A stretch of 64,000 nt of DNA, from NCBI RefSeq assembly GCF_007745175.1, contig NZ_CP036271.1, forward strand, positions 930,001 through 994,000, in the 5' to 3' direction. A model generated the notes under the pieces. That model had not been told where the DNA came from and did not search any database. It was given only the letters and a program-made list of their open reading frames with translations. Positions 4,101-44,049 of this stretch are shown here, in pieces. This DNA is from Caulifigura coniformis (lineage in GTDB: Bacteria; Planctomycetota; Planctomycetia; Planctomycetales; Planctomycetaceae). The position numbers and the translations under genes are program-made. How positions within the stretch are numbered: position 1 is the first letter of the stretch; the number at the start of each line of letters is the position of its first letter.

Positions 4101-4511
4101 AACGGCATCATGATGATTTCGCACTACATTCATCTGATGCAAAACGAGGGGGAGTCGTTCTCGGAACACATGATCATCCGGGGCAGCCTAGAGCGTCTTG
4201 CGCCGGTGATGATGACCGCAGCGACCAGCTTTATTGGTCTCCTGCCATTACTGTTCGGGGCCGGACAAACAGGCAAAGAGATCCTGCACCCACTGGCCCT
4301 GGTCGTCTTTGGGGGGATGTTGACGTCCACGCTGCTCGACCAACTCGTGACGCCAGCGTTGTTCCTGCGATTCGGCAGGCGCATCTCCGAATCGCGAAGT
4401 TCGACCATGAGTTCGCTGAGCAGGGACAGCCACGGCGGTGTCTCTCCACCGCAACCAGGGCAAGAGCCCGCTGGCGAGCAGGGAGCGGAATTTCGCAATC
4501 CTTCAGTGTGA
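1107..4511 (+). CDS. CzcA/CusA-type heavy-metal RND transporter
   Basis: Proton-driven inner-membrane pump of the heavy-metal efflux RND family, 1134 residues, a normal length. The N-terminus runs MLNAIISWSLHNRG, then a first membrane segment, then QMPVDVFPDLNRPTVTIMTEAPG, as in CzcA. The fourth membrane segment carries the charged relay motif GDLVDDSIVDIENIYRRL, with the Asp-Asp pair expected for metal-RND proteins. A second half follows from about residue 535. The loop before the segment that precedes SRNGIMM has about 25 extra residues rich in Trp, and the C-terminal tail is Gly/Pro/Gln rich. ATG at 1107 follows the adaptor stop closely. The substrate is probably a divalent cation (Co/Zn/Cd/Ni or Cu) but cannot be read from the sequence. 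Confidence 0.95.
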   Translation: MLNAIISWSLHNRGIVLILAATVLIAGGYQLSQMPVDVFPDLNRPTVTIMTEAPGLAPEEVEVLVTRQLEFLLNGSTGVQRVRSASGIGLSIVWVEFEWGTDIYRDRQIVAEKLQVARDRLPQDVNPVLAPISSIMGEIMLLGLRSTKPTSTPDEASSVGMELRTLGEFEVRNRLLAVEGVSQVTVMGGVFKQYQVVTSPARLAAQNVTLQQLVDAATKANVLAGGGIVVREPQESLLRISGQSLALEDLENTPVVWREPRPVLIKDVASVQFSGPVKRGDGSVQVKEGERVVGGPSVILTVQKQPGADTLVLDRKISEVLDQLELELPEDVEIERRIFKQADFIRAAVDNVIEAVRDGAIWVVVVLFLFMWNFRTSISSLTAMPLSILLTVLCFWWFGITINTMTLGGIAVAIGDLVDDSIVDIENIYRRLKENIHKAAPEPALKVIYDASSEVRNSIVYATLIVILVVFPLFSMGGLEGRMFAPLGIAYITSLLCSLAISLTVTPVLGYYLLPGAKFLEERSDPLLLRWLKAVTSRVLHITLRHSTAVLLTTCIGVLLSVTLIFWMGGEFLPPFNEGTLTISLQTEPGTSLDESQRIAARAERLLLEVPEVLAVSRRTGRAELDEHAEGVNSSEIDVRLLEHERPKPGVLAGILRLIPVAHLWGFESQGRDREVVLADVRDRITAIPGAKVNIGQPISHRLDHIMSGVRAQIAVKVFGTDLQELRIAAQDAFTEMQKVKGVVDLQMEPQVEIPQIRLQVKREAAARHGLAPGDVAELLEIAYKGRVVSQVLDEDRYFQLMVWFDEPSRSNPEVIGQTILQTPSGRMVALSEVAEVLDTTGPNTINREHVRRRIVVFCNVHDRDLAGVVADIRQSLKPLEERLRLLPGNYYIEYGGQFEAQQDASFRLLVLGGASVIGVFLLLWKCLDSWQAALQVLANIPLAAMGSVLTLLIVNWPEASKLAAVHWWQWPRVWAEATSLSVAHWVGFITLIGIVSRNGIMMISHYIHLMQNEGESFSEHMIIRGSLERLAPVMMTAATSFIGLLPLLFGAGQTGKEILHPLALVVFGGMLTSTLLDQLVTPALFLRFGRRISESRSSTMSSLSRDSHGGVSPPQPGQEPAGEQGAEFRNPSV

Positions 4512-4681
4512 CTATGCAACGCGTGCGAACTCGCACACATCCTCAGGTCGCTTCGCCTCCGTACAAGAAAGGTGGGTGCACAATGTATTGACACCAGCGC
4601 GTAGGACAAACATCCCTGACTCTTTCGTCAACCGGCATTCCGCCCGTTCCGGACATTTTTGATCTACTTGGAGAAAAGCAC

Positions 4682-5254
4682 ATGTCATGTCGCGTCCTGA
4701 TGATCACTCTCGTAACCGTTGGTGCGGTCCTTTCCACGTCCCTCGCTAACGCCCAGCAAAAGTCCAATTTCCCTGGGAAGCCCGCAAATCCGGGCCGCCA
4801 GGAAATGAGCAACTCGTATCGTGCACAGGGGTCTTTCTCACGGGGCTACCGTCCTTCAATGACGTATAGCTACCAGAATTCGGCTCGCTCGCACGCCCAA
4901 GCCCTGTCGTCGCAGGGGCAGGCGGTGAAGAAGATCGATCCACAGACCGCGAAGGAGCATGTCGCTGAGGTCAAGAAAAACGTTGCGGCCGCGAAGACGG
5001 AATTGACCAAGATCGACATGGAAGCAGCCAAGAAGGCGGAGATCGTGCAGCACATTGACGCCATGAAGAAGCATTATGAAGCGGCCGAAAAGTGCTGCAG
5101 CGATGCCGATCACCACATCGAAGCGAATGCGGAAAGCGGGACCATTGCCTCGTGCTGTGCGGACATGGATAAGCACCTGGCCGCGGCGGAGGCGGAGCAC
5201 AAGAAGCTGATGGAGCTGCTGCACATTGAGCTGCCGAAGCCGGCTGCAAAATAG
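4682..5254 (+). CDS. Small exported coiled-coil protein with Cys/His cluster
   Basis: A 190-residue protein of unknown function. A signal peptide is clear at residues 1-24 (MSCRVLMITLVTVGAVLSTSLANAQ, cut after ANA). A Ser/Tyr/Arg-rich linker follows, then a helical segment rich in Ala/Lys/Glu (about 80-125). Next comes a Cys/His stretch with CCSDADHHIEANAE and CCADMDKHLAAAE, followed by a final helix. The paired CC and HH motifs suggest metal binding in the periplasm. It lies 170 bp downstream of the pump gene and upstream of a strong terminator, so it probably belongs to the efflux unit. A short Tyr/Ser/Gly-rich part resembles the small exported protein at 17752-18042. Function is inferred from context only. 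Confidence 0.75.
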   Translation: MSCRVLMITLVTVGAVLSTSLANAQQKSNFPGKPANPGRQEMSNSYRAQGSFSRGYRPSMTYSYQNSARSHAQALSSQGQAVKKIDPQTAKEHVAEVKKNVAAAKTELTKIDMEAAKKAEIVQHIDAMKKHYEAAEKCCSDADHHIEANAESGTIASCCADMDKHLAAAEAEHKKLMELLHIELPKPAAK

Positions 5255-5329
5255 GGGAGCGCAATGTCGGACGACGCTCTGCGAGAGCACGACAAACCCG
5301 TCGACTCCTTGACTGAGCGCTGTTAACAG

Positions 5330-5363
5330 ACCTTCCGGCGGCTGGCCGGAAGGTCCCTTTCTT
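5330..5363 (+). terminator. Rho-independent terminator
   Basis: A perfect 10-bp stem (ACCTTCCGGC / GCCGGAAGGT, 5330-5339 and 5345-5354) with a 5-nt loop, followed by CCCTTTCTT. It closes the first efflux unit. Confidence 0.85.
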
Positions 5364-5509
5364 AGTCAGACAAACAGGCGAAGTCCTCAACGTTGTCATA
5401 GTGTTGTCAGGCAGCGACGACCAGAAACACGCTCGCACTCAGTCAGCATGCTTGTCGACGGCGAGTGTGGGACCTCGTTCTTCTCCGTTTCGTTTCCGGA
5501 TGGTCGCCG

Positions 5510-8272
5510 ATGCCGGGTCACACGCTTTTTAGCCTCTCGACCGAACAGGCTGTATTGCAGCTTCGCGCCAATGCTGAGCAGGGACTTTCCACAGTGGAGG
5601 CCGTGGAGCGCCAGAAGCAAAGCGGCTTCAATCAGCTCACGGAAGCAGCACCTGAGCCAGCGTGGAAGCGACTCTTTCGTCAGTTCCAGGATCTGGTCAT
5701 CTGGATCTTGATCGCCGCGGCAGTCATCTCTGGACTGCTGGGGGAATGGGTCGACACGTTGGCCATTCTCGCAATCGTCGTCCTCAATGGCGTGATCGGG
5801 TTTCTTCAGGAGCAACACGCGGAGCTGGCGATGTCGGCCTTGAAAAAACTGTCGGCGCCGACCGCCAAGGCGCTCCGAGATGGCGTTCTGCAGTCCTTGC
5901 CCGCTCGGGAGCTCGTCCCTGGCGACATCATTGAAATCGAGGCCGGGGACAACGTCCCGGCCGATGTGCGGTTGCTGAAGGCGTTCAGCGTGAGCGTGCA
6001 GGAAGCAACGCTGACAGGAGAGTCCACGTCTGTCGAGAAGGAGGCTGATGTCGTTCTCCCGGCCGAGACGCAACTCGGTGACCGTCGAAACATGGTTCAC
6101 ATGGGCACCATCCTGACGACCGGCAAGGCTTCAGGCATGGTGGCCGCCATAGGCATGGAGACAGAGCTGGGACAAATAGCTGGGATGCTGGCTCGCCATG
6201 AACTGGAACTCACTCCACTTCAAAAGCGGCTGGCGAAGTTAGGACAAGTCTTGATTGGAGTCTGCCTGGCGATCGTTGCGCTCATCTTTGCCTTGCAAGT
6301 GATGCGTGGCGGCAGCCTCCTGGAGGCACTGCTTGTGTCGGTGAGTCTCGCTGTCGCCGCCGTTCCAGAAGGTCTACCGGCTGTCGTCACGATCACTCTC
6401 GCACTTGGCCTGCAACGCATGGTGAAACGTAAGGCACTGGTGAGAAAACTGCCCAGCGTGGAAACGCTCGGTTCGGTCTCGGTGATTTGCTCTGATAAGA
6501 CTGGCACCCTGACTCGCAACGAAATGACCGTCAAGGCGATCGTGACGAGCTCCAAATCCTACCAGGTGACCGGAGGCGGTTACGCGCCCCGTGGCGACTT
6601 CTATCAGACGTCCGATTCAACTCTGGTCGACGACGAGGCTCTTCCCAAAGTCGCCCGGACGGTGAATCCCGAGACGGATCTCGACCTCCGTCTGGCGCTC
6701 AAAATTGGCGCCTGGTGCAATGGCGCGCAGGTCGCGCCGCAATCGGACGGAGATGGCGTCTGGCAGGTCATCGGCGATCCGACGGAAGGTGCACTGGTCG
6801 TCGCGGCCATGAAAGGCGGACTGAGTCCGTCTGCTCGGAGCGGCGAAATCACGTATGAGCTGCCGTTTGATTCGAACCGAAAGATCATGTCCGTGGTCGT
6901 TCGGGAACCCGGAGGCACGTCGCTCTACACAAAAGGCGCTCCCGAAAGCGTCCTGGCTCGCTGCGACCGTATCCATCGGTGGGGTGTGGCGGAGCCGCTG
7001 AGTGAAGATGATCGCAGGCGGGTCCTGGCCTCAAGCATTTCTTTGTCATCGCAAGCGTTGCGTGTGCTCGGGGTGGCCTACGGTCCAGATCCACGGGAAC
7101 CGGGCAGTACCGATCTCGAACGGGAGCTGGTGTTCTGCGGGTTAGTGGGAATGATCGATCCGCCTCGCGAAGAGGTAAAAACCGCGATTGCAACCTGCCG
7201 CTCGGCCGGAATACGACCGGTGATGATCACAGGCGACCATCCGGCAACCGCACTGGCGATTGCCAAGCAACTCGGACTGACAACCGGCCCTGAACATTTG
7301 CTGGCCGGTCAGGAGCTGGCCCAGATGACGGATGCTGATTTGGCCGGCGTGATCCACGACATCTCCGTGTACGCGCGGACAACGGCAGAACACAAATTGC
7401 GAATCGTCCGAGCCTGGAAATCACGCGGAGACGTCGTCGCCATGACTGGCGACGGTGTCAACGACGCACCGGCGGTGAGAGCCGCCGACATTGGCATCGC
7501 GATGGGCATCACCGGAACTGATGTCACCAAAGAGGCATCCGACATGGTGCTGCTGGATGACAACTTTGCATCAATCGTCAGCGCCGTCGAGGAAGGGCGG
7601 GGGATCTACGACAACATCCAGAAGGCGCTCGTATTTCTGTTGTCGTGCAACTGTGGTGAGATCCTGTTGATGCTCGGTGCCAGCCTGCTCGGCTGGCCCG
7701 CACCGCTTCTGCCGATCCAATTGCTATGGATCAATCTTGTGACGGATGGCTTGCCTGCTCTAGCCCTGTCCTTCGAGCCGCCCGAACCCGGCGTGATGAA
7801 TCACCCGCCGCGCCAAGCGAACGAATCAATCCTGTCCCGAAAACTGGGCATTGCAATCCTATTCCAAGGCCTGCTGGTCGGACTGGTCGGCCTGCTCGCC
7901 TTCGGTCTGAGCTTGCGGCACCGGCCTGACGATGTTGATCGCGCGCGAGCAATGGCATTCTGCGTACTCGTCTACGCCGAACTCTTCCGTGCACTCGGCG
8001 CTCGGAGCCAGACGCTGACGCTACGGCAGCTCGGATTCTGGAAGAATCCTCATCTTCTGCTGGCGATCCTGGTTTCTGGACTCCTGCAAGTGAGTGTGGC
8101 CATTGTTCCGTTTACCGGGCGCGTGTTTGATGTCCCCCCTCATACGTGGTCCGAATGGGGCACAATCATTCTGCTGGCACTCACGCCCTTGATCGTGGTC
8201 GAACTCGTCAAAGAGCTCCGTCAGGTCATCCACGTCGATCATGTCATCACTCCGGATGGAGTCACCTCATGA
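5510..8272 (+). CDS. P2-type cation-transporting ATPase (Ca2+-ATPase-like)
   Basis: An ATP-driven cation pump of the P2 class, about 920 residues. Visible motifs are the actuator TGES (ATLTGESTSVEKEAD), the PEGLPA motif of membrane helix 4, the phosphorylation site DKTGTLT with Asp329, the hinge TGDGVNDAPAV and the P2-type C-terminal half (QLLWINLVTDGLPALALSFEP). There is no CPC motif and no HMA domain, so it is not a P1B heavy-metal ATPase; Ca2+ or a related ion is more likely. The frame is open from 5465, but ATG 5510 gives a start (MPGHTLFSLSTEQAV) that fits the cation-ATPase N-terminal domain. The stop overlaps the next start (ATGA at 8269-8272), so translation with the adaptor is coupled. 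Confidence 0.92.
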   Translation: MPGHTLFSLSTEQAVLQLRANAEQGLSTVEAVERQKQSGFNQLTEAAPEPAWKRLFRQFQDLVIWILIAAAVISGLLGEWVDTLAILAIVVLNGVIGFLQEQHAELAMSALKKLSAPTAKALRDGVLQSLPARELVPGDIIEIEAGDNVPADVRLLKAFSVSVQEATLTGESTSVEKEADVVLPAETQLGDRRNMVHMGTILTTGKASGMVAAIGMETELGQIAGMLARHELELTPLQKRLAKLGQVLIGVCLAIVALIFALQVMRGGSLLEALLVSVSLAVAAVPEGLPAVVTITLALGLQRMVKRKALVRKLPSVETLGSVSVICSDKTGTLTRNEMTVKAIVTSSKSYQVTGGGYAPRGDFYQTSDSTLVDDEALPKVARTVNPETDLDLRLALKIGAWCNGAQVAPQSDGDGVWQVIGDPTEGALVVAAMKGGLSPSARSGEITYELPFDSNRKIMSVVVREPGGTSLYTKGAPESVLARCDRIHRWGVAEPLSEDDRRRVLASSISLSSQALRVLGVAYGPDPREPGSTDLERELVFCGLVGMIDPPREEVKTAIATCRSAGIRPVMITGDHPATALAIAKQLGLTTGPEHLLAGQELAQMTDADLAGVIHDISVYARTTAEHKLRIVRAWKSRGDVVAMTGDGVNDAPAVRAADIGIAMGITGTDVTKEASDMVLLDDNFASIVSAVEEGRGIYDNIQKALVFLLSCNCGEILLMLGASLLGWPAPLLPIQLLWINLVTDGLPALALSFEPPEPGVMNHPPRQANESILSRKLGIAILFQGLLVGLVGLLAFGLSLRHRPDDVDRARAMAFCVLVYAELFRALGARSQTLTLRQLGFWKNPHLLLAILVSGLLQVSVAIVPFTGRVFDVPPHTWSEWGTIILLALTPLIVVELVKELRQVIHVDHVITPDGVTS

Positions 8273-33984: not shown

Positions 33985-34884
33985 ATGACCACACGTGAAG
34001 AGATTCAGGAACGTGCCACAGCGGCGTTCGAGGAACTCGTGGCAGCCCTGGCGCAAGGCAACAGCGAACAGCTGACGGCTTATCTCCAGACGATGTCCCG
34101 GTTCCACCAGTATTCCTTCGGCAACTGCATGTGGATTGTTCTCCAGCGTCCCGATGCCACGCATGTCGCCGGGTTTCAGCGCTGGAAACAGCTCGGCCGA
34201 TTCGTGAAGTCGGGCGAGAAGGGGATTGCGATCCTTGCTCCGTTGGCGTTTCGCAAGAAACGCACTGCGGAGGAGGAAAGAGGGGAGGACCAGTCCCCGG
34301 CCGACGAAGACAATCCCGAGAAGCCATCACGGCGGGTTGCCGGATTTAAGGTGGCCTACGTGTTCGATGTCAGCCAGACCGACGGGAAACCGCTGCCAGA
34401 GTTTGCCGCGGTGAACGGAGATCCGGGTGACAGGCTGGAGCGACTCGAAGATGTGATTCGAGGCTACGGCATCGAGTTGAACTATGAGCCGATTTCAGGG
34501 GGCGCCCTGGGCGTCTCGGAAGGGGGCGTCATTCGGGTGCTTCCGACGTTGCTGCCAGCCGAAGCATTTTCAGTCCTGGCTCACGAACTGGCCCATGAAC
34601 TGTTGCATCGCGGGGAGCGAAGAAAGGAGACGACGAAGACGGTTCGAGAGACGGAAGCGGAAGCGGTGGCCTTTGTTGTTTGTCAGGCGAGTGGGATCGA
34701 AAGTCGAACCCGGTCGAGCGACTACATTCGGCTGTATGCGGGTGACAAGGAACTGTTGCAGCAATCACTGGAGCACATCCAGCGAGTGTCGACGGCAATC
34801 TTGTTGCAACTTCAGGAGGAACCGAAGGCCGTAGCCGCTGTGACCGAGTTTCCAGCGGAGGCTCACGAGTCTGTCGCGGTTTGA
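33985..34884 (+). CDS. ArdC-like antirestriction protein with metallopeptidase motif
   Basis: A 299-residue ArdC-like protein. The N-terminal ArdC-type single-stranded-DNA-binding domain is visible: YLQTMSRFHQYSFGNCMWIV, QRWKQLGRFVKSGEKGIAIL and GFKVAYVFDVSQTDGKPLP. The C-terminal zincin domain carries HELAHELLH (His200, Glu201, His204), followed by a downstream ETEAEAVAFVV with the third ligand region. Such proteins protect incoming plasmid DNA from host restriction. Its place in a mobile element with relaxase and Rep fits this. Confidence 0.9.
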   Translation: MTTREEIQERATAAFEELVAALAQGNSEQLTAYLQTMSRFHQYSFGNCMWIVLQRPDATHVAGFQRWKQLGRFVKSGEKGIAILAPLAFRKKRTAEEERGEDQSPADEDNPEKPSRRVAGFKVAYVFDVSQTDGKPLPEFAAVNGDPGDRLERLEDVIRGYGIELNYEPISGGALGVSEGGVIRVLPTLLPAEAFSVLAHELAHELLHRGERRKETTKTVRETEAEAVAFVVCQASGIESRTRSSDYIRLYAGDKELLQQSLEHIQRVSTAILLQLQEEPKAVAAVTEFPAEAHESVAV

Positions 34885-35036
34885 TGAGGGAGGTTCTGCT
34901 TTGCACGCCATCGAGCCTCCATCTTTTTCTGGCTGTGACTCTGCCGCCGATCCTCGTCAACAGTAGCGCCCGGAGGAGATCGCGCTGGGAAGGCCTGCCG
35001 ACCGTCACCTGTTGTCGAGAAGTTTGCCTCTCGGCT

Positions 35037-35837
35037 TCAGGATGAAAAGCGTGAATCGTCAGCACCGGTCTCGGTATTGAACCGATATTCCTTCTCACCG
35101 AGGGTAATCGTGGTTTGGATACCCATGTCGATCAGCTGCATTGCGATGTTTCCGGGCAGTCGACTTCCCTCAGGCATCAGGGCAACGTACACGTCGAGTC
35201 CGCCGTAGAATTGAAGGTGAACCAAGAAGACACCGAACTGGTCGGGCTCAGTAAACTGAAAGTTGAATACCTCTGGATTACGCCCGAGTCGAGGTTTGCC
35301 TTGCAGCTCCAGTCCAACCTTGTCGCGAACAAAGCGTTGGAACTCTGCCGGATTCGGTGAATCACTGGGAACGTAGCCAAGTACCGTCTTCGTTGTCCCT
35401 CGAAATGTGCGGCCGAAATGGGCTAAGTGGATACCGCGGGCGACTCGATCAAAACACCTCAGCAGCCTTTCGTAGTCAGGGGTTCCCCAGACGACGTCTA
35501 TGAACTTGTTCGGCCCGAATTCGATGGTTGACCATTTCTGGTTACCCATCGCTCGATTCAATAGCGAAAACGAACTGCGATAGATCGCCCGATTCACCTT
35601 TGTGAACTTGTGAGCGTATCCGATTGAGTTGTTGCCGATGATGCCAGCGAGACTGACCATCAGGAATTCATCGTCCCCGGACTTTCCGCTGTTGTGGTCG
35701 TGACAGGAGGGCACTGTCAGAAGATTCTGCCGATAGTCCTTCCCAACATCCTTCGACTCAGGAAAGAGGCATCGGGGAGGAACGTGCTCACGAGATGTGC
35801 TCGGAAGATCGCACATGTAGCAGATGGTTGATTCCAT
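35037..35837 (-). CDS. HNH endonuclease-like protein
   Basis: A 266-residue protein; ATG 35837 puts the zinc-type motif at the N-terminus. The motif is CYMCDLPSTSREHVPPRCLF, with Cys6, Cys9 and His18, followed by TVPSCHDHNSGKSGDDEF, with Cys45, His48 and Asn49. This is the layout of HNH-type nucleases (CxxC, EHVxP, SCxxHNxxxSxxDE). The remaining 200 residues are not recognised. It stands alone on the minus strand between ArdC and the recombinase, where it may act in element defence or mobility. Confidence 0.7.
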   Translation of the reverse strand: MESTICYMCDLPSTSREHVPPRCLFPESKDVGKDYRQNLLTVPSCHDHNSGKSGDDEFLMVSLAGIIGNNSIGYAHKFTKVNRAIYRSSFSLLNRAMGNQKWSTIEFGPNKFIDVVWGTPDYERLLRCFDRVARGIHLAHFGRTFRGTTKTVLGYVPSDSPNPAEFQRFVRDKVGLELQGKPRLGRNPEVFNFQFTEPDQFGVFLVHLQFYGGLDVYVALMPEGSRLPGNIAMQLIDMGIQTTITLGEKEYRFNTETGADDSRFSS

Positions 35838-36059
35838 TTGTTGAATCCAGCAAACAACTTGACGGTCCCACAAGCCATTCGATCGAGGACACGACATTTG
35901 ACGCTCTGGTTCTGAGGGTCAGGCGACAATTCATTGACCCAGTGTCCGGCCATGTAAAGCTTTTCCGACCCACAATCAATCCCTGTAAAAATGGCGTCTG
36001 TCGCATCCCCGCATTCCGATCCATAAAGGACGTTCTGAATCACGATCCACCGTCACGGA

Positions 36060-37040
36060 ATGACAAGTCGCCGAACCGTTTCAAGAACTCCGCTCCCCAT
36101 TTCTCGGTCGACGTTGCGGCTGCCAGCTGTAATTCGTGCCTCTGGGGCCAAGGCGGCCCGGCGCTTCCTGGAGTTCTTCACTGCTCAGATCCGCAACCGT
36201 AACACGCGAGAGGTCTACCATCGGGCCGTGTCTGACTTTCTTGCCTGGGTTGCTGATCAGAACGGCTCACTCGACCTGATCGAGCCAATCCATGTGGCGG
36301 CCTACATCGAGTACATGGCGACGATCTACGCGCCGCCGACTGTGAAGCAGCACCTGGCCGCGATCCGAATGTGTCTTGATTGGCTCGTCACGGGCCAAAT
36401 CATTGCCAGTAATCCCGCCGCCTCAGTCCGCGGACCGAAGCACATCGTCAAACGGGGCAAGACACCCGTCATTACGGCCGACGAAGCGAGGCAACTGCTC
36501 GACAGCATCGACACGTCGACGCTGATCGGGCTCCGCGACCGGGCGCTCATCGCCACCATGCTCTTCACGTTCGGCCGCGTCAGTCCGGTCGTCGGGATGA
36601 AGGTCGACGACTACTACCAGATCGGCAAACGGTCCTGGATTCGGCTCCACGAGAAAGGGGGAAAGTTCCACGAGGTCCCGGCCCACCACACGGCGGTCGA
36701 GTATCTGGACGCCTACCTCACCGCGGCAGGTCATACTTACGCCCCCGACTCTCCCCTCTACCGGACGGCCCGCGGCAGGAGCGGGGAACTAACCAACCAG
36801 CCCATGTCGCGGCAGGACGCCCTGCGGATGGTCAAACGCCGGGCTCGCACGGCTGGCCTCTCTGATCGGGTTTGCTGCCACACGTTCCGGGCGACGGGGA
36901 TCACCGTCTACCTGTCGAATGGTGGCGTGATCGAAAAGGCCCAGGCCCTGGCCGGGCATGAATCGCCCCGGACGACGAAACTGTATGACCGAACCAGCGA
37001 CGAAGTCAGCCTGGACGAGGTCGAGCGGATTCTAATTTGA
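36060..37040 (+). CDS. Tyrosine recombinase/integrase
   Basis: A 326-residue integrase of the XerC/phage family. A SAM-like N-terminal core-binding domain (about 35-125) precedes the catalytic domain. Catalytic residues are in place: Arg173 (FTFGRVSPVVGMKV), Lys near 199 (HEKGGKF), His274 and Arg277 (HTFRATG), His300 (AGHESPRTT) and Tyr309 (KLYDR). The AR of typical XerC box I is GR here. It is the obvious candidate for inserting the element between the two flanking repeats. Confidence 0.9.
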   Translation: MTSRRTVSRTPLPISRSTLRLPAVIRASGAKAARRFLEFFTAQIRNRNTREVYHRAVSDFLAWVADQNGSLDLIEPIHVAAYIEYMATIYAPPTVKQHLAAIRMCLDWLVTGQIIASNPAASVRGPKHIVKRGKTPVITADEARQLLDSIDTSTLIGLRDRALIATMLFTFGRVSPVVGMKVDDYYQIGKRSWIRLHEKGGKFHEVPAHHTAVEYLDAYLTAAGHTYAPDSPLYRTARGRSGELTNQPMSRQDALRMVKRRARTAGLSDRVCCHTFRATGITVYLSNGGVIEKAQALAGHESPRTTKLYDRTSDEVSLDEVERILI

Positions 37041-37127
37041 GGGCCCTCCCCTCCATGCCCATCCGGAATTCCAAGCACCTGCACATCGTTCTGGCCTGCT
37101 AGTTGTCAGTCGTGGTAGAATACCCCC

Positions 37128-37397
37128 ATGGAAACGATCATCCGGAACGTCCGCGACCTCCCCGAAGTCGACCGCTCGGCGGCTGAGCAACTGGTCGGCC
37201 ACGAGCTGACGCCGGACCAGCAGCTGGTGATCGTCGTGCAATACTCCCGCGGTCAAGCGCTGGCACCCAAGTCGACGGGATCGACTCCCAAGCTTCCGGA
37301 CTGGTGCAATGTCTTCTCCGGGCTCAATGACCAGGAAGTAGCTGACCTGGAGGAGGTCATTCTGAGCCGCGCCGATCTTTCTCGCGCGACCGAGTAA
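37128..37397 (+). CDS. Probable antitoxin of a PIN-domain toxin
   Basis: An 89-residue protein directly upstream of the PIN toxin (3 bp between stop and start). The start METIIRNVRDLPEVDRSAAEQLVGHEL suggests a short beta/helix domain, and the end ADLEEVILSRADLSRATE is helical. No known DNA-binding fold is certain. Antitoxin identity is inferred from gene pairing and size. Confidence 0.65.
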   Translation: METIIRNVRDLPEVDRSAAEQLVGHELTPDQQLVIVVQYSRGQALAPKSTGSTPKLPDWCNVFSGLNDQEVADLEEVILSRADLSRATE

Positions 37398-37400
37398 TCG

Positions 37401-37814
37401 ATGTCGCCTGCGGTTCTCATCGACACCGATACGCTCTCGGAAGTTCTCAAACAGAAGAACGCGCTCGTTGTCGCGCAGGCTGCGGCCTATCTCGACGAGC
37501 ATGGGCGGTTCAGTTTCTCGGCGCTGACCCGGTATGAAGTCCTACGCGGTCTGACCAGCAAAGGGGCCGCTGTTCAAATCGCCCAGTTCGAAGCCTTCTG
37601 TGCTCGGTCCGAGATCCTGGCGATCGATGACGCCGTGCTGACCCGGGCCGCCCGTCTGTGGGCGCTGGCTCGACAGATGGGCCAGTCCCGGTCCGATGCC
37701 GACCTGATCATCGCCGCCACGGCCCTGGTCCACGGTCGGCCGCTGGTCAGCGGCAACACGCCGCACTTCGCCTGGATCCCGGACCTGATGCTGCTGAACT
37801 GGCGAGTGGGCTGA
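37401..37814 (+). CDS. PIN-domain toxin (VapC-like)
   Basis: A 137-residue PIN-domain ribonuclease. It begins VLIDTDTLSEV with acidic residue Asp8; Glu46 lies in RYEVLRG, Asp99 and Asp101 lie in SRSDADLIIAA and the last polar site is in LVSGNTPHF. This is the VapC arrangement for Mg2+-dependent RNA cleavage. It is paired with the small upstream gene. Such pairs stabilise mobile elements by post-segregational killing. Confidence 0.88.
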   Translation: MSPAVLIDTDTLSEVLKQKNALVVAQAAAYLDEHGRFSFSALTRYEVLRGLTSKGAAVQIAQFEAFCARSEILAIDDAVLTRAARLWALARQMGQSRSDADLIIAATALVHGRPLVSGNTPHFAWIPDLMLLNWRVG

Positions 37815-37961
37815 GTCCTCAGGGGACGGCGACATCCAGTTCCATTCCCTCCATTGACCACCGGCCCACGTCAGGGGCCCGATGGCCACAGAACGCTGTT
37901 TGAGTAGCGGTGCGATTCATGGCAGTCTCGGTGCATCAACCTATGTGCACGGAGGTGCTGT

Positions 37962-38282
37962 ATGACCGAAGAATCGACCACGAAGAAGAAGACGACGAAG
38001 GATCAAGACACCGCGAGTGTGGAGCCCGCAAAGGTGATCCGCCAGGGCGCGATTGCCGCCTCGATCTGGAAACGGCAGAGCCCGTCGGGGTTCGCCTACT
38101 ACGACTTCACGATCAGCCGTAGCTGGAAGACCCAGACGGGGAAGACGGGCTATTCCAGGTCCTTCTTCGGAGCCAATCAGGAGGCCCTGCTGCACGTCGT
38201 CACCGAGACGACGAAGTGGATTGCGGAGAACACTCAGGAGCAGCCGGAACTGGCTTCGGAACCGGCCGCGATGGCGGCCTAA
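37962..38282 (+). CDS. Small element protein, paralogue family member 2
   Basis: A 106-residue protein with GGAGGT 9 nt before ATG 37962. After a Lys/Thr-rich N-terminus the core is VIRQGAIAASIWKRQSPSG, then YYDFTISRSWKTQ, then VVTETTKWIAEN. It aligns along its length with the products of 33404-33721 and 51872-52147. It converges with the unknown gene at 38490-39221. Function is unknown. Confidence 0.7.
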   Translation: MTEESTTKKKTTKDQDTASVEPAKVIRQGAIAASIWKRQSPSGFAYYDFTISRSWKTQTGKTGYSRSFFGANQEALLHVVTETTKWIAENTQEQPELASEPAAMAA

Positions 38283-38285
38283 TCA

Positions 38286-38325
38286 CGCGGAGACCGCGGC
38301 TCCTTCAGGGGCCGCTCTTCCCTTC
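38286..38325 (+). terminator. Weak terminator-like hairpins
   Basis: CGCGG-AGA-CCGCG (38286-38298) and an overlapping GCGGC / GCCGC stem precede TCTTCCCTTCT, just after the small element protein stop. Confidence 0.4.
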
Positions 38326-38489
38326 TCCCCCATTTCCCATGGGCCTCATCGAACTCCAAATCACCCTCTTGGTGCTGAACCTGTCGGGCCTGATCCGCTG
38401 GCCGTTGCCGCTCGTCCTGGCACCGTCGTGGATCTTGTTGACGCTCTTCCTACTCCTATCCCACATCGCAAGACTCCCCTGAGTCTTCG

Positions 38490-39221
38490 TCAGACGCTCA
38501 TCGCCGAACGGGCATCCTCTGTCGATCCCTGCGGCAACCACTCGCCGCGATCAATGACCTCGAACGGCTTCACGATCTGGCGTTTATACCGCAGCACGGT
38601 TGTCGGCAGTTTCGACAGGCCCGCCTCGCCCCGTTGTTCGTTGACCAGCCGCAGGATGTTCAGCATCTGCCGCCGAACCGGAGCGTAGGGCTCAAACGGG
38701 ACCGAATACAGGAGCTTTGACAGCTCTTCCGCCGACCGGCGACAGGCCACGCTCAGGAGATCGGCCCGCAGGTCCTTGAACCGCTCGCGGGCAATCTGCA
38801 CCCGGACCCGCCGTTTCCCGTCCGCCACCGGTTCCCCGTCGGCGTCGTCCTTCCGCAGAAAGCCCCCCTGCTTCACGGAGAGCGAGTAACCTTCGATAGC
38901 GATCGGTGACTTCCTGGCGTCGCGGATGTTGTCGGCCTCCTCGGCGAAGAACGGGTGCTCCCCCTTCGTCGCAAGTAGGACCCAGTGGCGCCCGTATCGG
39001 AGGTAATGAACGTTCGCATGACCGACCAGCTTGCGGCGGGCCCGCTGCTGACGGGACAGGTCGACGCCGTACTTCTCGATCAGCTTCGCATCGATGGCTC
39101 GCGGATCTTTGCCATCAGGAACGTACCCACCCACCCAGAACCAGTATCCGTGCGGCAAGATGTTGCTTGCCAGTTGTTGAACGAAGCCTTCCAGGCTCGT
39201 GGCCTCACATCGATAGTCCAT
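38490..39221 (-). CDS. Unknown protein beside a large structured-RNA region
   Basis: A 243-residue protein of no recognised family; ATG 39221 follows AGGAGGAG. Clear features are HGYWFWVGGYVPDGKDPRA, KYGVDLSRQQRARRKLVGHA, NVHYLRYGRHWVLLATKGEH and, near the end, a helical part with EPYAPVRRQMLNILRLVNEQ. The many Arg/Lys residues suggest nucleic-acid binding. It is not a reverse transcriptase, LAGLIDADG or HNH protein. It lies directly downstream, on the same strand, of the hairpin-rich noncoding tract, in the place where an intron-encoded protein would sit. Confidence 0.7.
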   Translation of the reverse strand: MDYRCEATSLEGFVQQLASNILPHGYWFWVGGYVPDGKDPRAIDAKLIEKYGVDLSRQQRARRKLVGHANVHYLRYGRHWVLLATKGEHPFFAEEADNIRDARKSPIAIEGYSLSVKQGGFLRKDDADGEPVADGKRRVRVQIARERFKDLRADLLSVACRRSAEELSKLLYSVPFEPYAPVRRQMLNILRLVNEQRGEAGLSKLPTTVLRYKRQIVKPFEVIDRGEWLPQGSTEDARSAMSV

Positions 39222-39391
39222 GCGCGTCTCCTCCTGCTGAACGGCCAAACTGCAGCCGCTCAGAAGAAGGGGCTTGATCCTCAGCCAAGCCCCGACGTTG
39301 AAACCCTTCAGCGAACCAAATTCGCAAACCTCAACGGACAAACCTCGTCCTTTGACTGAAACCTCCGAAAGCGGACAAGACTCGTCGACTT

Positions 39392-40023
39392 GGCGTCGGA
39401 ACTACATTTCAATTCCGACGCCGCCAATTCCATAGGCGTACCGCATTGCTCAAAACCTCGGTGAACCGACCGGGTGCAAGGCACACCGGTCCTGTTCACC
39501 GTCAATTCGCTGCGAAAGCACACGCTCACTCCCGTGAACGTCTGGTTTCACCGCATTGCTTCCCACCAAGGAAACGGCACGAGGTGTCGCTCACGCGATT
39601 CCCCTCGTTCCTGCCTTCGTCACCCATTGCTGTCATCCCTTTCGTGGAGTTCCTCTGCCCCGGCACCACCCGGTCGGCCAACTCACGGGATCGGACTGCC
39701 TTGCCCGATGCACCGCTCAACGTCAGGACCTGCTCCCGCAAGTCCCTCGGTCGACTCCTACTCAGGACACACTCCCCCTCATCAGGCGTTTCACTCGACA
39801 GTGTTCCGCTCTTCGCACGGACTGACCGGAGACCGGTCAGAGGTGTGCGAACGGAGCACCGCAAGCTGTTGTCACCCTGCACATCAGCAGGGCACCGGCT
39901 TACCAGGCCGGAAGCCTGAGAGGTTCCTGCGTTCGTCCTGCACTTCATCGCTCAAGTCTCGTGGCTGAGGGGGTGTGATCCCCCGAACCCTCCGTCGCAC
40001 GTGCACCCGTCAGGGTGTCGCAC
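39392..40023 (-). ncRNA. Group II intron domain I-like structured RNA (partial?)
   Basis: On the minus strand the tract starts GTGCGAC at 40023, matching the GUGYG 5' end of group II introns. It continues with many compact stems: CACCC-GTCA-GGGTG, GGGGGATCACACCCCC, CCGGC/GCCGG, CCCTGC/GCAGGG and GACCGG-TCT-CCGGTC. Segments such as GTGAAACGCCTGATGAGGGG and GTAGGAGTCGACC look like conserved group II domain I sequence. A perfect 10-bp hairpin (39392-39422) ends the tract before the ORF. I found no reverse transcriptase and no domain V, so it may be an intron fragment or another large ncRNA. Confidence 0.5.
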
Positions 40024-40746
40024 TCACGCGGCCACTTTGGACCGCCTTTCCCCGGGCAAAACGTAGAAACTCCCGGGTATCGCTCGACGGAAAGCGTGTC
40101 GCCGTGAGGGACGGCCTGTCGGCCCTCCCTCACTGTCTCGGCATCGACTCTTGAGCAACTCACTGGCAAGCCCTTCCGGGCCTTTCATGGTTGAGCTCTT
40201 CACGGCCGATGGATTTGCCATCGGTCCCCGGAGTGATCAACTCCGGCAGGTCGTGTCACCACGACGCTGGCTCCCCACGCCAGACGGGTTCAACGGACGG
40301 TTCTCGCCCGAAGCCCCTCGTTACGGATTCGAGGCCATTAGCCTCCCACCGCTTTGAGCATGACGGCTCCGGCCAGCGAACATCGCTGGACCGAAGTTTT
40401 CCCGCATCGCCCACGTTCGGCGGCTACGGGCTCTGTGGAGGGCCCTTCGCCGCTGTCAGTATCGGATAGAACGCTGAGATTGGACTGGTTGGTGACCAGG
40501 ATTACTTCAGCGAGCCTCCGTCGATCTGGACAAGCACCTCTCGATGCATCCAGCTCTACAGCAGACAGCCTGACGGTGGTAAATCTCCGTCCCCTTCGCC
40601 GATTGGTGATCGGTTCCCGGGTGCTGTCTCGTGACCAAAGGCACTCATCAAAGCTTTTACGACCATTGACAGTCGTTCGGCCTATCCCCGCCGAACCGGA
40701 CGAGCGTAGCGCGGGGCCGATCGCTACTCAAATCGCCGGACCCGCG
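40024..40746. other. Hairpin-rich noncoding tract upstream of the intron-like RNA
   Basis: No credible protein gene; the open frames are Ser/Arg/Pro-rich. The tract carries a series of near-perfect hairpins: GTGAGGGA.../...TCCCTCAC, GCCGATGG/CCATCGGT, CCGGAGT-GATCA-ACTCCGG, CCAGCGA-ACA-TCGCTGG and GAGGC-CATTA-GCCTC. Stems follow each other with short linkers over 700 bp. This density is far above ordinary intergenic DNA, and the strand is undecided. Confidence 0.55.
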
Positions 40747-40770
40747 AAATGCGACAGCCCTGTCGCATTT
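40747..40770. repeat. Palindromic repeat copy 1 (ATGCGACA/TGTCGCAT)
   Basis: AAATGCGACA-GCCC-TGTCGCATTT, a perfect 10-bp inverted repeat 13 bp beyond the Rep gene stop. Related copies lie at 45997-46015, 47982-47999, 51759-51781 and 53278-53296. It could double as the Rep terminator. Confidence 0.75.
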
Positions 40771-40783
40771 GCAGACCGGCGGC

Positions 40784-42193
40784 TCAGGCCAGCGTCTTGA
40801 AGTGGCTGATGACGATCTGCCGCAGCAGCATCTCGGCGAACGGGGTGTTTTCGAGCTTGCGGTACTGGGCGACGGCTTCGGAATCGCCGGTCGCCAGGGC
40901 CGCTTCGGCCGCTACGGCCCGCTGCTCCGATGACGCTTCGTCCCAGGCTCGAATGGCCGCCTGATGGGCGTCGGCATCGACGACCGCCGCCGCGGCCGTC
41001 TTCTGTTCGGCCAGTCGTCGCTGCTGGGCCTTCCGTGTTCGCTCGTCGCAGGCGGCCTTCGTGACGAAGCCCCTGGGCGGCTGGTAGTCCTCGCGAATGG
41101 CGGCCGCCAGATACCCCGCCGGGTTCTGGGAGATCCGGGCATCTTTCCGCTCCAGCATCCAGTCGTGGAGTTCGATCTTTTCGGCAATGCGTGACGCTGG
41201 GAACTCCCGAACCAACGCCGCTGCCATGCTGGTGCGGAGACCGCGATCGGTCAGCTCGACGACGAGTGGCTCCTGGGATTCGGCCACAGCCGAGACGGCG
41301 TCGCCTTTCGACTGCCGCAGGAGCGAGATCGTCCATTCCCCGTGGCGACGGCGAACGAACCGCGTCTGAGTCGGCTCCGGGACCAGGAACCCGATCGACT
41401 CCAGTTCTTCGAGGGCCGGTTGCAGCTTGCGTTTGAGCTGGGCGCTGTCGTAGTTCCGCCCCAGCCCGACGTGTTCACAGGCAAACACCCGCAGATCCAT
41501 CTCGAATCGCTTGGAGCGATAGAACCGTTTGTCGAGGAACCGGTACGCCTGACGGGCCGCCGGGATCTGCAGTCGAAAGTAGGTGTTGAGGTCGAGCCGC
41601 TTGAGGTGATTCGACTGGAACGACGAGAACAGCATCGAGTTCCACGAGAACGTCGACTGCCCATCATCGGAGGGGCCACTGCGCCCTTCTTTGCCGCGGA
41701 GATCGAGCGATTCCAGGATGTGGAACGTCTGGCTCTTCCAGCGTCGGTGACTGCGGTCCCACCAGGCCCGGTTGTAATACAGTGTGACGCTGGCCCAGCG
41801 TTGCAGCGATTCTTCGAGACGGCGATAGGATTTTCCGGAGTTGTCCCAGCCCAGGAACTTCACCAGTTCGTACCGAGTGAACGACACGGTCGGCGACTGG
41901 AACCGGGTCCGGCAGTTCGTGAGATGCATCAGGACCAGCAGAACGTCGCTGTCGACGGGCGTCGGCAGGCCGAAAGCATCGCTGGCCGAGATAATCAGCT
42001 TGCGATGCACCAGTTGCTGATTGCCCTCGTCGAAGATCTCATCTTCGAACGTCAGCGTCTTCTGATTGGGATTCGTGCGGTGTCCGCACGCCGCGAGCGG
42101 AAACTCGGCCAAATTCAGCTCGTCGGTGCCGAGCGTCCGGTTCGAGTCGTCGAACTCGATCGTCTTGAGATTGGCCCGTTCTGTCTCGCCCAC
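40784..42193 (-). CDS. Plasmid replication initiator (RPA/RepA-type)
   Basis: A replication initiator of about 469 residues. The RPA-type domain is clear: IFDEGNQQLVHRKLIISASD, VLLVLMHLTNCRTRFQSPTV, FTRYELVKFLGWDNSGKSYR and a second winged-helix part with LRLQIPAARQAYRFLDKRFY-like sequence. The C-terminal third is Ala/Glu-rich and helical. I chose GTG 42193, which follows GGAAGGG at 8-14 nt; TTG 42232 is possible but lies in an inverted repeat. Six iteron-like repeats stand just upstream (42318-42528), as expected for an iteron-controlled origin. Confidence 0.88.
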   Translation of the reverse strand: MGETERANLKTIEFDDSNRTLGTDELNLAEFPLAACGHRTNPNQKTLTFEDEIFDEGNQQLVHRKLIISASDAFGLPTPVDSDVLLVLMHLTNCRTRFQSPTVSFTRYELVKFLGWDNSGKSYRRLEESLQRWASVTLYYNRAWWDRSHRRWKSQTFHILESLDLRGKEGRSGPSDDGQSTFSWNSMLFSSFQSNHLKRLDLNTYFRLQIPAARQAYRFLDKRFYRSKRFEMDLRVFACEHVGLGRNYDSAQLKRKLQPALEELESIGFLVPEPTQTRFVRRRHGEWTISLLRQSKGDAVSAVAESQEPLVVELTDRGLRTSMAAALVREFPASRIAEKIELHDWMLERKDARISQNPAGYLAAAIREDYQPPRGFVTKAACDERTRKAQQRRLAEQKTAAAAVVDADAHQAAIRAWDEASSEQRAVAAEAALATGDSEAVAQYRKLENTPFAEMLLRQIVISHFKTLA

Positions 42194-42223
42194 AAATCCC
42201 TTCCGTTGTTCCTTCGTCCAAAA

Positions 42224-42248
42224 GAACAACAACCGTCTGTTGTTGTTC
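42224..42248. promoter_or_regulatory. Inverted repeat ahead of the Rep gene
   Basis: GAACAACAAC-CGTCT-GTTGTTGTTC, a perfect 10-bp inverted repeat between the iterons and the Rep start. It could be an operator for Rep autoregulation or an mRNA leader hairpin. Confidence 0.6.
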
Positions 42249-42317
42249 TTTGATGATCTTTATTAACAGATCTTTGCCCCCCGCCAAACCCCCGAAATGA
42301 TAGGCGAATCAGGGGCC

Positions 42318-42528
42318 AAGTCTGCCTCGCATCCCGGTAGTTTGCCCTCGAAGTCTGCCGTCCGCCCCGGCATTTGGCTGCTGTCAATCCCGCGAAATCC
42401 CTGCCCTCAGTCCCGGTCCTGCTGCCCTGAATCCCGGCCTGAAATCACGTGAAGTCTGTCTCAGATCCCGGTACTCGCAATTCGGCCCGGAACTCCGCTC
42501 GTTCCAAAGTCTGCCCTGAGTCCCGGTT
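42318..42528 (+). other. Iteron array, probable replication origin (oriV)
   Basis: Six degenerate direct repeats close to AAGTCTGCCCTGAGTCCCGG begin near 42318, 42351, 42397, 42418, 42452 and 42507. The best copy is 42507-42528, and the spacing is 21 to 55 bp. They lie directly upstream of the plasmid Rep gene and downstream of nothing else that is coding. This is the standard layout of an iteron origin. The rest of 42529-42932 shows no gene. Confidence 0.75.
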
Positions 42529-42932
42529 CCGAGGGCCCCGTTCGACACATCGGCATCTGATGCACATCGGATGGAGAACGATTCCGCTTCAACCGACTTG
42601 AAGTTCAGGCTTATCGCGCCGCTTTCCACGGAGCAAGCACTTTCGTGCGGACTGGCCAGTGGCGTTGCCGCCTGGACCGCTGCCCAGGTTGATGCTCGGC
42701 CGCTCAACAATCTGGCATGCTGTCTAAACGTCATGCTGACATGATGGCCTGCAATCAAGATTGCCGTGAGCAAAGGTGACTGGACGAGGAGCCGGACGCA
42801 CAACCAGGCCGCTGCGTACCGGGAATGCAGGCAGAGTTCCTGAACACGTTTCCCGACGGCCGGTCAGTCGAATGACAACCTGCGTGAAAAAGCCTCTTGC
42901 CGGAATGCTGGCGGCGTGAGATGCCAGAGGGC

Positions 42933-43613
42933 ATGAAACTCGTCTTCGCAAATTCCAAAGGTGGTGTCGGCAAAAGCACGCTGGCTGTGCACGCGGCCGT
43001 GTGGCTCCGCGACCGAGGCTTTTCAACCTGCGTTCTGGATCTCGACCCGCAGCGCAGCTCGGCCGCCTGGATCGCCGAAGTCGCCCCCGACATCACGGTT
43101 CACATCGCTGACACGCCGGAGGAATGCCTCTTAAAGGTCCAAATTGCCTCGGAGCAGGGCGATCTCCTGGTAATGGATGCTCCGGGCGGGCTCGATGAAT
43201 TGACACGCGCGGCGATGATGATGGCGGATGTGGCGTTGCTGCCGATTACGCCTTCCATCCTCGACCTGCGAAGCGTTCAGACGGCCACGAACACCCTTCG
43301 CTACGCCCAGCAGCTGAATGGCGGTCGCCCTGAGGGCGTCCTGATCCTGAACCGTATGAAGAGCCGGGATTCCATCAGCCGTGATCTGAAAGAAGCGGCG
43401 TTGTCGCTCGGAGTGACGGTCGCTCGGACGTCCGTTCGTGATCTCCAGGCGTTTCGTGACGCACCGCAGCAGGGGACCGTCGTGTCCCGCATGGGACGTC
43501 GCGCCGCGTCGTCCGCCGCCGAGATCGACGCGTTGTTCGATGAGCTCTTGGGTACACGTATCAGGAAATTGCAGGAACAAATGGTTGTGAACAGGGAGGT
43601 GGGAAATGGTTGA
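42933..43613 (+). CDS. parA: ParA-family partition ATPase
   Basis: A Walker-type partition ATPase of about 226 residues. It starts MKLVFANSKGGVGKSTLAVH, with the deviant Walker A KGGVGKST, then VLDLDPQRSSAAW and VMDAPGGL (Walker B). The length and motifs fit small plasmid ParA/MinD-like proteins without an N-terminal HTH. ATG 42921 would add four residues. It overlaps the next gene by 8 bp. It would segregate the element before cell division, on the side of the iterons opposite to Rep. Confidence 0.92.
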   Translation: MKLVFANSKGGVGKSTLAVHAAVWLRDRGFSTCVLDLDPQRSSAAWIAEVAPDITVHIADTPEECLLKVQIASEQGDLLVMDAPGGLDELTRAAMMMADVALLPITPSILDLRSVQTATNTLRYAQQLNGGRPEGVLILNRMKSRDSISRDLKEAALSLGVTVARTSVRDLQAFRDAPQQGTVVSRMGRRAASSAAEIDALFDELLGTRIRKLQEQMVVNREVGNG

Positions 43614-44049
43614 TCGCAGAGGATTGAGTCAGGCGATGGGATTGTCGTCCGACAAGCTGGCCTTCATCACGGGGAAAGCGCCCTCGCCAGAAGTTGAAGA
43701 CTCCACATCGGAACTGACCTTCGACGTTGAGACGTCTGTCTCCAGTGCCCCGGTGGCCGAGATTGAAACGCCGGGAACATCGAAACCCGAGCATGCCACG
43801 GCGAGAACACGACGGCCGCACCGACCGCGAAGCTCATCGCGTCAGGCTGACATCAAATTCACGCCGGAACCGGTCGGGCTGTATGGCCCGATCAAGGTTC
43901 CGCTCACGATCCGCCTGAATCCCCAGACGGCCGACGCACTGCGTCGGGCCTGTCTCGAACAGAAACTCGCCCGTCGCACGCCGAATTCCCAACAGGAGAT
44001 TGCCGAAATCGCCATCGCTGGTTGGCTTCGCGAGCAGGGCCATCTGTGA
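43606..44049 (+). CDS. Probable ParA partner (ParB-like accessory)
   Basis: A 147-residue protein, translationally coupled to ParA (8-bp overlap). The N-terminal half is low-complexity (Glu/Ser/Thr/Pro, then Arg-rich). The C-terminal 50 residues (VPLTIRLNPQTADALRRACL, then QQEIAEIAIAGWLREQGHL) form a compact helical domain like ribbon-helix-helix or plasmid CopG-type domains. A DNA-binding partition partner is the natural reading; the family is not certain. Confidence 0.75.
   Translation: MVDRRGLSQAMGLSSDKLAFITGKAPSPEVEDSTSELTFDVETSVSSAPVAEIETPGTSKPEHATARTRRPHRPRSSSRQADIKFTPEPVGLYGPIKVPLTIRLNPQTADALRRACLEQKLARRTPNSQQEIAEIAIAGWLREQGHL

Follow-up and report, generated by a model that had tools for sequence, protein, structure and literature searches.

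Locus and features

The window, by which we mean the whole 64,000-nucleotide stretch of Caulifigura coniformis DNA analyzed here, carries on its minus strand a structured RNA that lies between two genes. Just upstream is a gene for replication initiator protein A (RPA), and downstream is acpG, whose start codon is located 170 nt past the RNA end. The RNA itself extends from approximately 40629 to 39392 (~1.24 kb). In the list below, D1 to D6 denote group II intron domains, RT denotes reverse transcriptase, and R1 and R2 are our models of D5-D6 and of D1, respectively. The window is among the training rows of both models, so its own scores are not independent, and the E-values of R1 and R2 are rough.

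40784-42232, minus strand: RPA gene (PF10134, 8.6e-15), just upstream of the ribozyme and outside it
40563-40629, minus strand: 5' domain (P1/P2-like), with a closing helix AGACAGC/GCUGUCU round an inner ACCA-loop hairpin; paired in the MFE fold
40461-40559, minus strand: D5 (~40556-40520) and D6 (~40519-40461), from RF00029 (38.6 bits), R1 (107.2 bits, the window being an R1 training row) and covariation
40413-40460, minus strand: linker, a predicted 48-nt RNA circle by the splice-site rule, with IBS1 GAACGU at 40418-40413
39880-40412, minus strand: 5' splice site GGGCGA at 40412, present in all 21 aligned rows, and D1 (3' limit approximate), with R2 scoring 154.4 bits at 40294-40133 (the window being an R2 training row)
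40046-40081, minus strand: EBS1 hairpin in D1, with EBS1 ACGUUU at 40064-40059; six of six pairs with IBS1, covarying over 63 loci
39796-39872, minus strand: extra stem of ~77 nt, missing from the other 33 aligned loci (column occupancy 0)
39392-39870, minus strand: region of D2, D3 and D4, which are placed solely by their order; conserved blocks to 39392, MFE fold, and a terminal 13-bp hairpin ending at 39392
38490-39221, minus strand: acpG, 243 aa, AGGAGG before ATG; palm and thumb predicted to be RT-like, catalytic Asp lacking

An earlier note on this DNA described the tract 39392-40746 as structured, without a credible ORF and without an RT, and our analysis agrees. The minus-strand MFE fold leaves almost nothing unpaired over 1,299 nt (-625.9 kcal/mol). 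The comparison with chance was made for covariation, where both D5-D6 and D1 exceed shuffled alignments, as detailed below. No ORF in the tract resembles a known gene, and none of those listed is RT-like. In an alignment of 34 sequences (33 loci and the window), conservation reaches the terminal 13-bp hairpin, whose end is at 39392, and falls beyond it, with a weaker block at ~39300-39255 before acpG. The layout of the 5' domain is kept in relatives, where its closing helix has compensating changes when read by eye.

Among 99 genomes searched for the tract, 15 gave a match, the source genome included; the other 14 matches are partial. The tract is single copy in its own genome, and a repeated element was therefore rejected as a candidate.

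The surroundings (33985-44049) hold a plasmid-like set of genes, namely ArdC-like, tyrosine recombinase, PIN, RPA and ParA. Because these genes are inside a 6.76-Mb single contig, they may belong to an integrated plasmid.

Domain order and splice sites

At Rfam gathering thresholds, the window gave no matches. When the 3-kb region around the tract was searched with an E limit of 5, the sole match was RF00029 (group II D5-D6) at 40558-40461 on the minus strand, with an E-value of 2.2e-5 and a score of 38.6 bits, which is under the gathering score of 40. The Infernal search recommended in the earlier note thus returned a match, albeit below threshold, and it overturns the statement in that note that domain V is absent. 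The proposal that the tract includes group II domain I-like sequence held up, in that a conserved, covarying D1 is present. Since D5-D6 is found upstream of the domain I-like sequence, the RNA has the permuted order D5-D6-D1 onward and is not a fragment. The canonical order of D1 to D6 is not observed, as D5-D6 sits 5' of D1.

The same order recurs row by row in a 21-row alignment that comprises 18 fetched loci with RNA similarity, the window and three plasmid loci, minus L023, which was left out of the core alignment as shown. Each row has D5 followed by D6, whose end is a version of UUCUAUCCGAU; after a linker that varies between rows come GGGCGA, found in 21 of 21 rows, and D1. Two loci, L016 and L027, were dropped from alignment A4 because their D5 is broken by an intron.

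Covariation was assessed on homologous loci, as the earlier note had suggested, and supports both conserved regions. For D5-D6 (19 sequences), 96.8% of cells are paired and 21 of 30 pairs show changes on both sides; slid controls reached at most 46.2%, and none of 500 shuffles was as high. The D1 core (21 sequences) behaves similarly, with 96.1% of cells paired, changes on both sides in 22 of 33 pairs, slid controls at or below 45.0%, and 0 of 500 shuffles as high.

The landmarks associated with catalysis are all intact in the window: the D5 stem and bulge, a bulged A in D6, GGGCGA, and a six-of-six EBS1-IBS1 pairing. The bulged A, at 40467, is seven bases before the end of D6 and is the predicted branch point, and the predicted 3' splice site follows 40461. 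IBS1 consists of the last six bases of the linker, and EBS1 occupies the loop of a hairpin that is conserved in D1.

We evaluated the EBS1-IBS1 interaction over 63 loci, including the window. In total, 291 of 378 positions are paired, compared with a shuffled mean of 249.3, and 0 of 5000 shuffles are as high; because kinship among loci inflates this test, it supports the pairing, and the shuffle figure is not to be taken as a probability. Taking the last rather than the first GGGCGA after D6 gives 284 of 378 (mean 244.3, 0 of 5000). The final position pairs least often (30 of 63 loci). Over 63 loci, predicted linkers range from 12 to 142 nt, with a median of 24. Three loci (L078, L079 and L093) have predicted circles of 110, 126 and 142 nt, and that of L031 seems longer still.

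This RNA architecture is that of circularly permuted (CP) group II ribozymes, or "T-large" RNA, described by Roth et al. in 2021 (PMC8637638); the class is mentioned in other papers as well. According to that paper, such RNAs average ~900 nt in length, have GGGCG and NU splice sites, and yield circles of 15-86 nt, and the splicing chemistry of representatives from five species has been published in vitro (PMC8637638). The RNA in the window is a member of this published class, now found in Planctomycetota; the main text of PMC8637638 names neither Planctomycetota nor Cyanobacteria. It shares with the class the placement of D5-D6 before D1, the GGGCG/NU splice sites, EBS1-IBS1, the bulged A of D6, and a linker (48 nt) within the published range, above which the predicted circles of L078, L079 and L093 fall. 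It also resembles the class in having no intron-encoded protein (IEP) ORF inside, a neighborhood of plasmid or rep genes, and AcpG alongside. It differs in being longer (~1.24 kb versus the ~900-nt average) and in that acpG comes directly after it and shares its strand.

Support that is independent of R1 and R2 training is provided by RF00029, BLAST matches and the Polaromonas plasmid pPNAP05. R1, built without pPNAP05, finds the published CP group II RNA of that plasmid at 40.5 bits, and the GGGCG rule applied there gives a 32-nt circle, which is the length published (PMC8637638). R2 found nothing convincing on pPNAP05, where its top score of 10.6 bits came from a different site, and no match on Thermus plasmid pTT8. 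The best R1 site on pTT8 is weak (17.6 bits); it adjoins, and is divergent from, an ORF that resembles TTHC007.

Among contacts specific to CP RNAs, the best supported is a loop-loop pseudoknot between P2 and D2, which is no more than a candidate here. Scores were obtained for 29 of 32 loci, the window not among them, and were equalled by 83 of 2000 shuffles. By eye, a CACCAA/UUGGUG pairing is possible in the window.

AcpG: distribution and predicted fold

AcpG has been reported as a protein of unknown function without homology to any known protein class (PMC8637638). The earlier note had drawn attention to an unrecognized Arg/Lys-rich ORF at 38490-39221, where an intron ORF would usually be expected. 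This ORF is present, matches no Pfam family, and, judged by its sequence, is AcpG, which PMC8637638 describes as a partner to CP group II RNAs. The identification derives from a profile of the AcpG family: among 534 ORFs of two published plasmids, one ORF of pTT8 alone scored above threshold (E 1.2e-5), which marks the window ORF as AcpG. From its place and size, this pTT8 ORF (6164-6943 of the record) appears to be TTHC007 of Thermus thermophilus. TTHC007 is similar to the window AcpG in size and in being adjacent to a CP group II RNA. It differs in that BLAST finds no match between the two proteins and in that TTHC007 is divergent from its RNA. Sequence searches of NCBIfam, PHROGs and PDB gave best E-values of 0.017, 0.37 and 0.025, which we judged to be chance.

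With tblastn (E 0.01), AcpG homologues were found on 20 plasmid records: 10 from Escherichia, four from Leptolyngbya, and one each from a planctomycete, Calothrix, Pandoraea, Planococcus, Paraburkholderia and Azotobacter. A protein search of named genomes produced 166 loci, and the best 80 of these consist, by title, of 60 from Planctomycetota, 13 from eight other phyla and seven from untitled bacteria; many of the records are MAGs. Because we used the best 80 of 166, the association counts that follow lean towards close relatives. AcpG was absent from phage and IMG/VR searches, and 15 IMG/VR stretches that share a D1 17-mer contain no R1, R2 or AcpG match.

Of the loci with at least 1.7 kb of upstream sequence (from the best 80 of 166, and mostly planctomycete), 60 of 63 have the RNA upstream of acpG on the same strand; it was not found in L066, L072 and L084. 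D5 is located 1089-1564 bases before the AcpG match, with a median of 1316 (59 loci with D5 found, from the best 80 of 166). Conversely, when loci were picked by RNA similarity, 16 of 18 carry acpG within the fetched stretch. Among 392 genomes of the phylum, the source genome included, acpG occurs in seven and the RNA in ten, and all seven acpG genomes have both. In these seven, acpG lies ~0.8-1.3 kb beyond the start of the D1 match, and both are on one strand. The remaining genomes are G363, with a strong RNA match (144.7 bits) and no acpG, and G182 and G204, whose RNA matches are borderline.

The same-strand arrangement is not universal. In the four Pseudomonadota plasmids examined, as well as pTT8, acpG is divergent from the RNA rather than downstream. 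For example, E. coli plasmid pSCU-171-2 (L172, one of ten E. coli records) has a CP D5-D6 match at 4601-4679 on the minus strand (35.5 bits, 20-nt circle) and a divergent acpG homologue at 4977-5669 on the plus strand. Plasmids of Azotobacter, Paraburkholderia and Pandoraea are similar (45.3, 42.2 and 24.2 bits). A Calothrix plasmid (plasmid5, L013) has tandem CP group II RNA matches (1630-2004 and 3781-4145) upstream of a single acpG.

To predict the structure of AcpG, we used AlphaFold2. The model of the window protein has a pLDDT of 90.4 and a pTM of 0.83. A second model, of a Thiocystis protein (32 sequences, pLDDT 96.0), was built on a subset of the sequences used for the first and is therefore a replicate, not an independent result. 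The 996 chains that Foldseek ranked highest for the window model were re-aligned by VIA. In this ranking, the first nine rows are RTs of group II introns or the group II-like G2L4 RT (Z 10.0-8.3), and all of the best 50 rows are RTs or spliceosome/U5 entries. For the spliceosome and U5 rows (Z 8.1-6.4), residue ranges indicate that the aligned chain is presumably Prp8. With the Thiocystis model, VIA ranks 1-10 are group II-type RTs (Z 9.8-8.6), followed by DGR, DRT9, Prp8, retron, telomerase and viral polymerases, and the first row that lacks a polymerase or RT fold is at rank 47 (Z 5.3). The top rows for the window and Thiocystis models superpose with rmsd values of 4.7 and 3.8 over 204 and 187 residues, respectively. 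The highest-scoring group II RT exceeds every match of a different kind by more than 1 Z unit; low-ranked group II rows tie with DRT9, DGR and Prp8 (Z within 1).

The four best Foldseek matches of the Thiocystis model are group II RTs (probability 0.94-0.99), and the window model has a group II RT at rank 1 only. For both models, no Foldseek match to PDB reached E <= 0.001 (TM 0.31-0.43), and a BFVD fold search with AcpG likewise gave no match at E 0.001. Support from sequence is marginal. Pfam RT families match none of 74 AcpG family members at E up to 10. Of the 80 loci, 73 entered AcpG alignment A6; six loci were left out for a stop in the match range, and L054 was also left out. The AcpG profile drew on 94 sequences. 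With hhalign, AcpG aligned to 21 to 24 RT rows at E 0.006-0.034 and a probability of at most 6.2%, and one of 200 column shuffles exceeded the real score. An earlier run with a less clean column set had one outlier in 60 shuffles, at 135.9 (138.1 in global mode).

The profile alignment places YLRYGRHWVL of AcpG on RT motif C (YVRYADDFLL) and IEGYSLSV on motif E (FLGYEV). Thus, the YADD of RTs corresponds to YGRH in the window AcpG. With positions mapped through this marginal alignment, D or E occupies position 77 in 31 of 74 family members and position 78 in four of 74, and so no acid is conserved. The alignment with 6ar1 covers RT residues 102-418, which suggests that an N-terminal part is missing in AcpG. 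Like group II IEPs (PDB 8h2h, 8t2r, 6me0 and 6ar1), AcpG is predicted to have a palm and a thumb, which align over 171-204 residues, and its gene is 3' of D1-D4. It differs from them in lacking the conserved catalytic Asp, in the apparent loss of the N-terminal part, and in being approximately half the size.

The new element of this report is that the predicted fold of AcpG is best matched by group II intron RTs. Our literature search on AcpG/TTHC007, which covered few subscription journals and almost no preprints, returned no report of an RT-like fold, and PMC8637638 was the sole paper on the subject. On the basis of the predicted structures, AcpG is quite probably a dead, shortened IEP. We likewise consider it probable that AcpG, once an IEP reverse transcriptase, has lost catalysis and now serves as a dedicated splicing cofactor. 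The RT fold predicted to be common to AcpG and group II RTs does not establish the function of AcpG.

Proposed splicing, origin and alternatives

We favor, with a probability of roughly 0.86, the following joint interpretation. The minus strand of ~40629-39392 encodes a CP group II ribozyme with its halves swapped and a predicted 48-nt circle, and the acpG product is predicted to have an RT/maturase-like palm and thumb whose catalytic aspartates are gone, the gene presumably having decayed from a D4 ORF. Based on the anatomy of the RNA and the published in vitro chemistry of its relatives, the first step of splicing would be an attack by branch-point A40467 in D6 on the 5' splice site at 40412, which lies downstream. 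The linker 3' end released in this step would be kept in place by EBS1-IBS1 and would attack the 3' splice site after 40461. As a result, the 48-nt linker would leave as an RNA circle, and the branched RNA would consist of D5-D6 joined 2'-5' to D1-D4. AcpG most likely would bind the ribozyme in the fashion of a maturase and aid its folding and back-splicing at cellular Mg2+ concentrations.

In an ordinary group II intron, the ORF sits in D4. If an intron were opened within D4, its ORF would come to lie right after D1-D4, which is the position of acpG here, and this consideration supports descent of AcpG from an IEP. The ORF would subsequently have decayed into AcpG. The divergent acpG genes of Pseudomonadota plasmids and pTT8 are not explained by this argument.

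The leading competing explanation accepts the CP ribozyme and disputes only the ancestry of AcpG: its RT-like fold could be convergent, or another RT (retron, DRT or plasmid RT) could have been recruited as an RNA-binding or plasmid protein. The divergent gene orientation just mentioned fits this idea, as do the marginal sequence comparison with group II RTs and the lack of a Pfam RT match. However, group II-type RTs fill the first nine and the first ten structural rows for the two models, the best of them more than 1 Z above any other kind, and the same-strand position after the RNA in 60 of 63 loci (from the best 80 of 166, mostly planctomycete) also argues against it. We regard this explanation as unlikely.

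Less likely still is the view that the CP ribozyme has decayed, has lost its activity and persists as a passenger of an island derived from a plasmid. Such a history would be compatible with the ~77-nt insertion found only in the window and with the plasmid-type genes (RPA and ParA) within a 6.76-Mb single contig, which may represent the remnant of an integrated plasmid. However, acpG is open, and the D5 stem and bulge, bulged A, GGGCGA and six-of-six EBS1-IBS1 pairing have all been retained.

Two readings that the earlier note offered now have almost nothing to recommend them. A fragment of a canonical group II intron with its 5' end at 40023 would draw on GTGCGAC, which resembles a group II 5' end and is followed by D1-like sequence, but that site is not conserved and falls within the 3' portion of D1. 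The 5' splice site that is conserved is GGGCGA at 40412, and D5 and D6 are present upstream of D1 in 21 aligned rows. The second reading, a hitherto undescribed type of large structured RNA with no relation to group II introns, would accord with the absence of an Rfam match at the gathering threshold, but is contradicted by the RF00029 match, by the D5/D6/EBS1 anatomy and by our D5-D6 model, which also detects a published CP group II RNA; the arrangement was itself published in 2021 (PMC8637638). Of the three readings in that note, an intron with a novel ORF was nearest the mark: its ORF, AcpG, would on the predicted fold be a degenerate IEP. The domain order is permuted.

The RTs of the host were considered as alternative helpers and rejected. 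Two RVT_1 proteins (L136 and L137, at G000:C1:2891693-2892325 and 4504600-4505238; 435 and 438 aa) are far from the window and are retron-like by eye, and the group II RT of L073 has no match in this genome.

If our preferred interpretation of the ribozyme and AcpG is correct, they constitute a bacterial parallel to the RNA core of the spliceosome and Prp8. Prp8 has lost polymerase activity, and the conversion of a mobile intron RT into a pure splicing factor has been proposed for it. Like AcpG, Prp8 keeps an RT fold beside a group II-like RNA active site, whereas Prp8 is far larger and serves a eukaryotic machine of many parts. The AcpG system could therefore be a small bacterial model for such a conversion. 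It would represent a group II machine that has lost mobility, whose maturase has become separate, and whose only output is RNA circles and branched RNAs. A relic maturase would give AcpG a testable job and would account for the permuted order through an intron opened in D4. PMC8637638, which states that CP group II RNAs never have IEP genes within or beside them, would also need revision on this point. Because homologous RNA-acpG pairs reside on complete plasmids, one of them from E. coli, laboratory tests are within reach.

A tie to plasmid maintenance is possible, given RPA-type genes upstream of the RNA. Such genes also occur in 15 of the best 80 of 166 acpG loci, and among those listed, 10 of 12 precede the RNA and share its strand. 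In pTT8, most of the CP RNA copy could be deleted with no significant effect on replication (PMC8637638).

Finally, five loci from four genomes have CP group II RNAs whose D5 hairpin is interrupted, at nearly the same site, by a canonical group II intron. These are L073 (554-2954), L077 (~2009-2675), L140 (~3525-4235), L142 (minus strand) and L064, in which only the 3' half is present near a contig end. An RT ORF is found inside the L073 intron and a 70%-identical RT in L142; none was seen in L077 and L140, whose introns are ~0.7 kb. The host CP ribozyme could act only after the inner intron splices. Joining the flanks restored D5 in all three cases checked (L140 being cut one base early).
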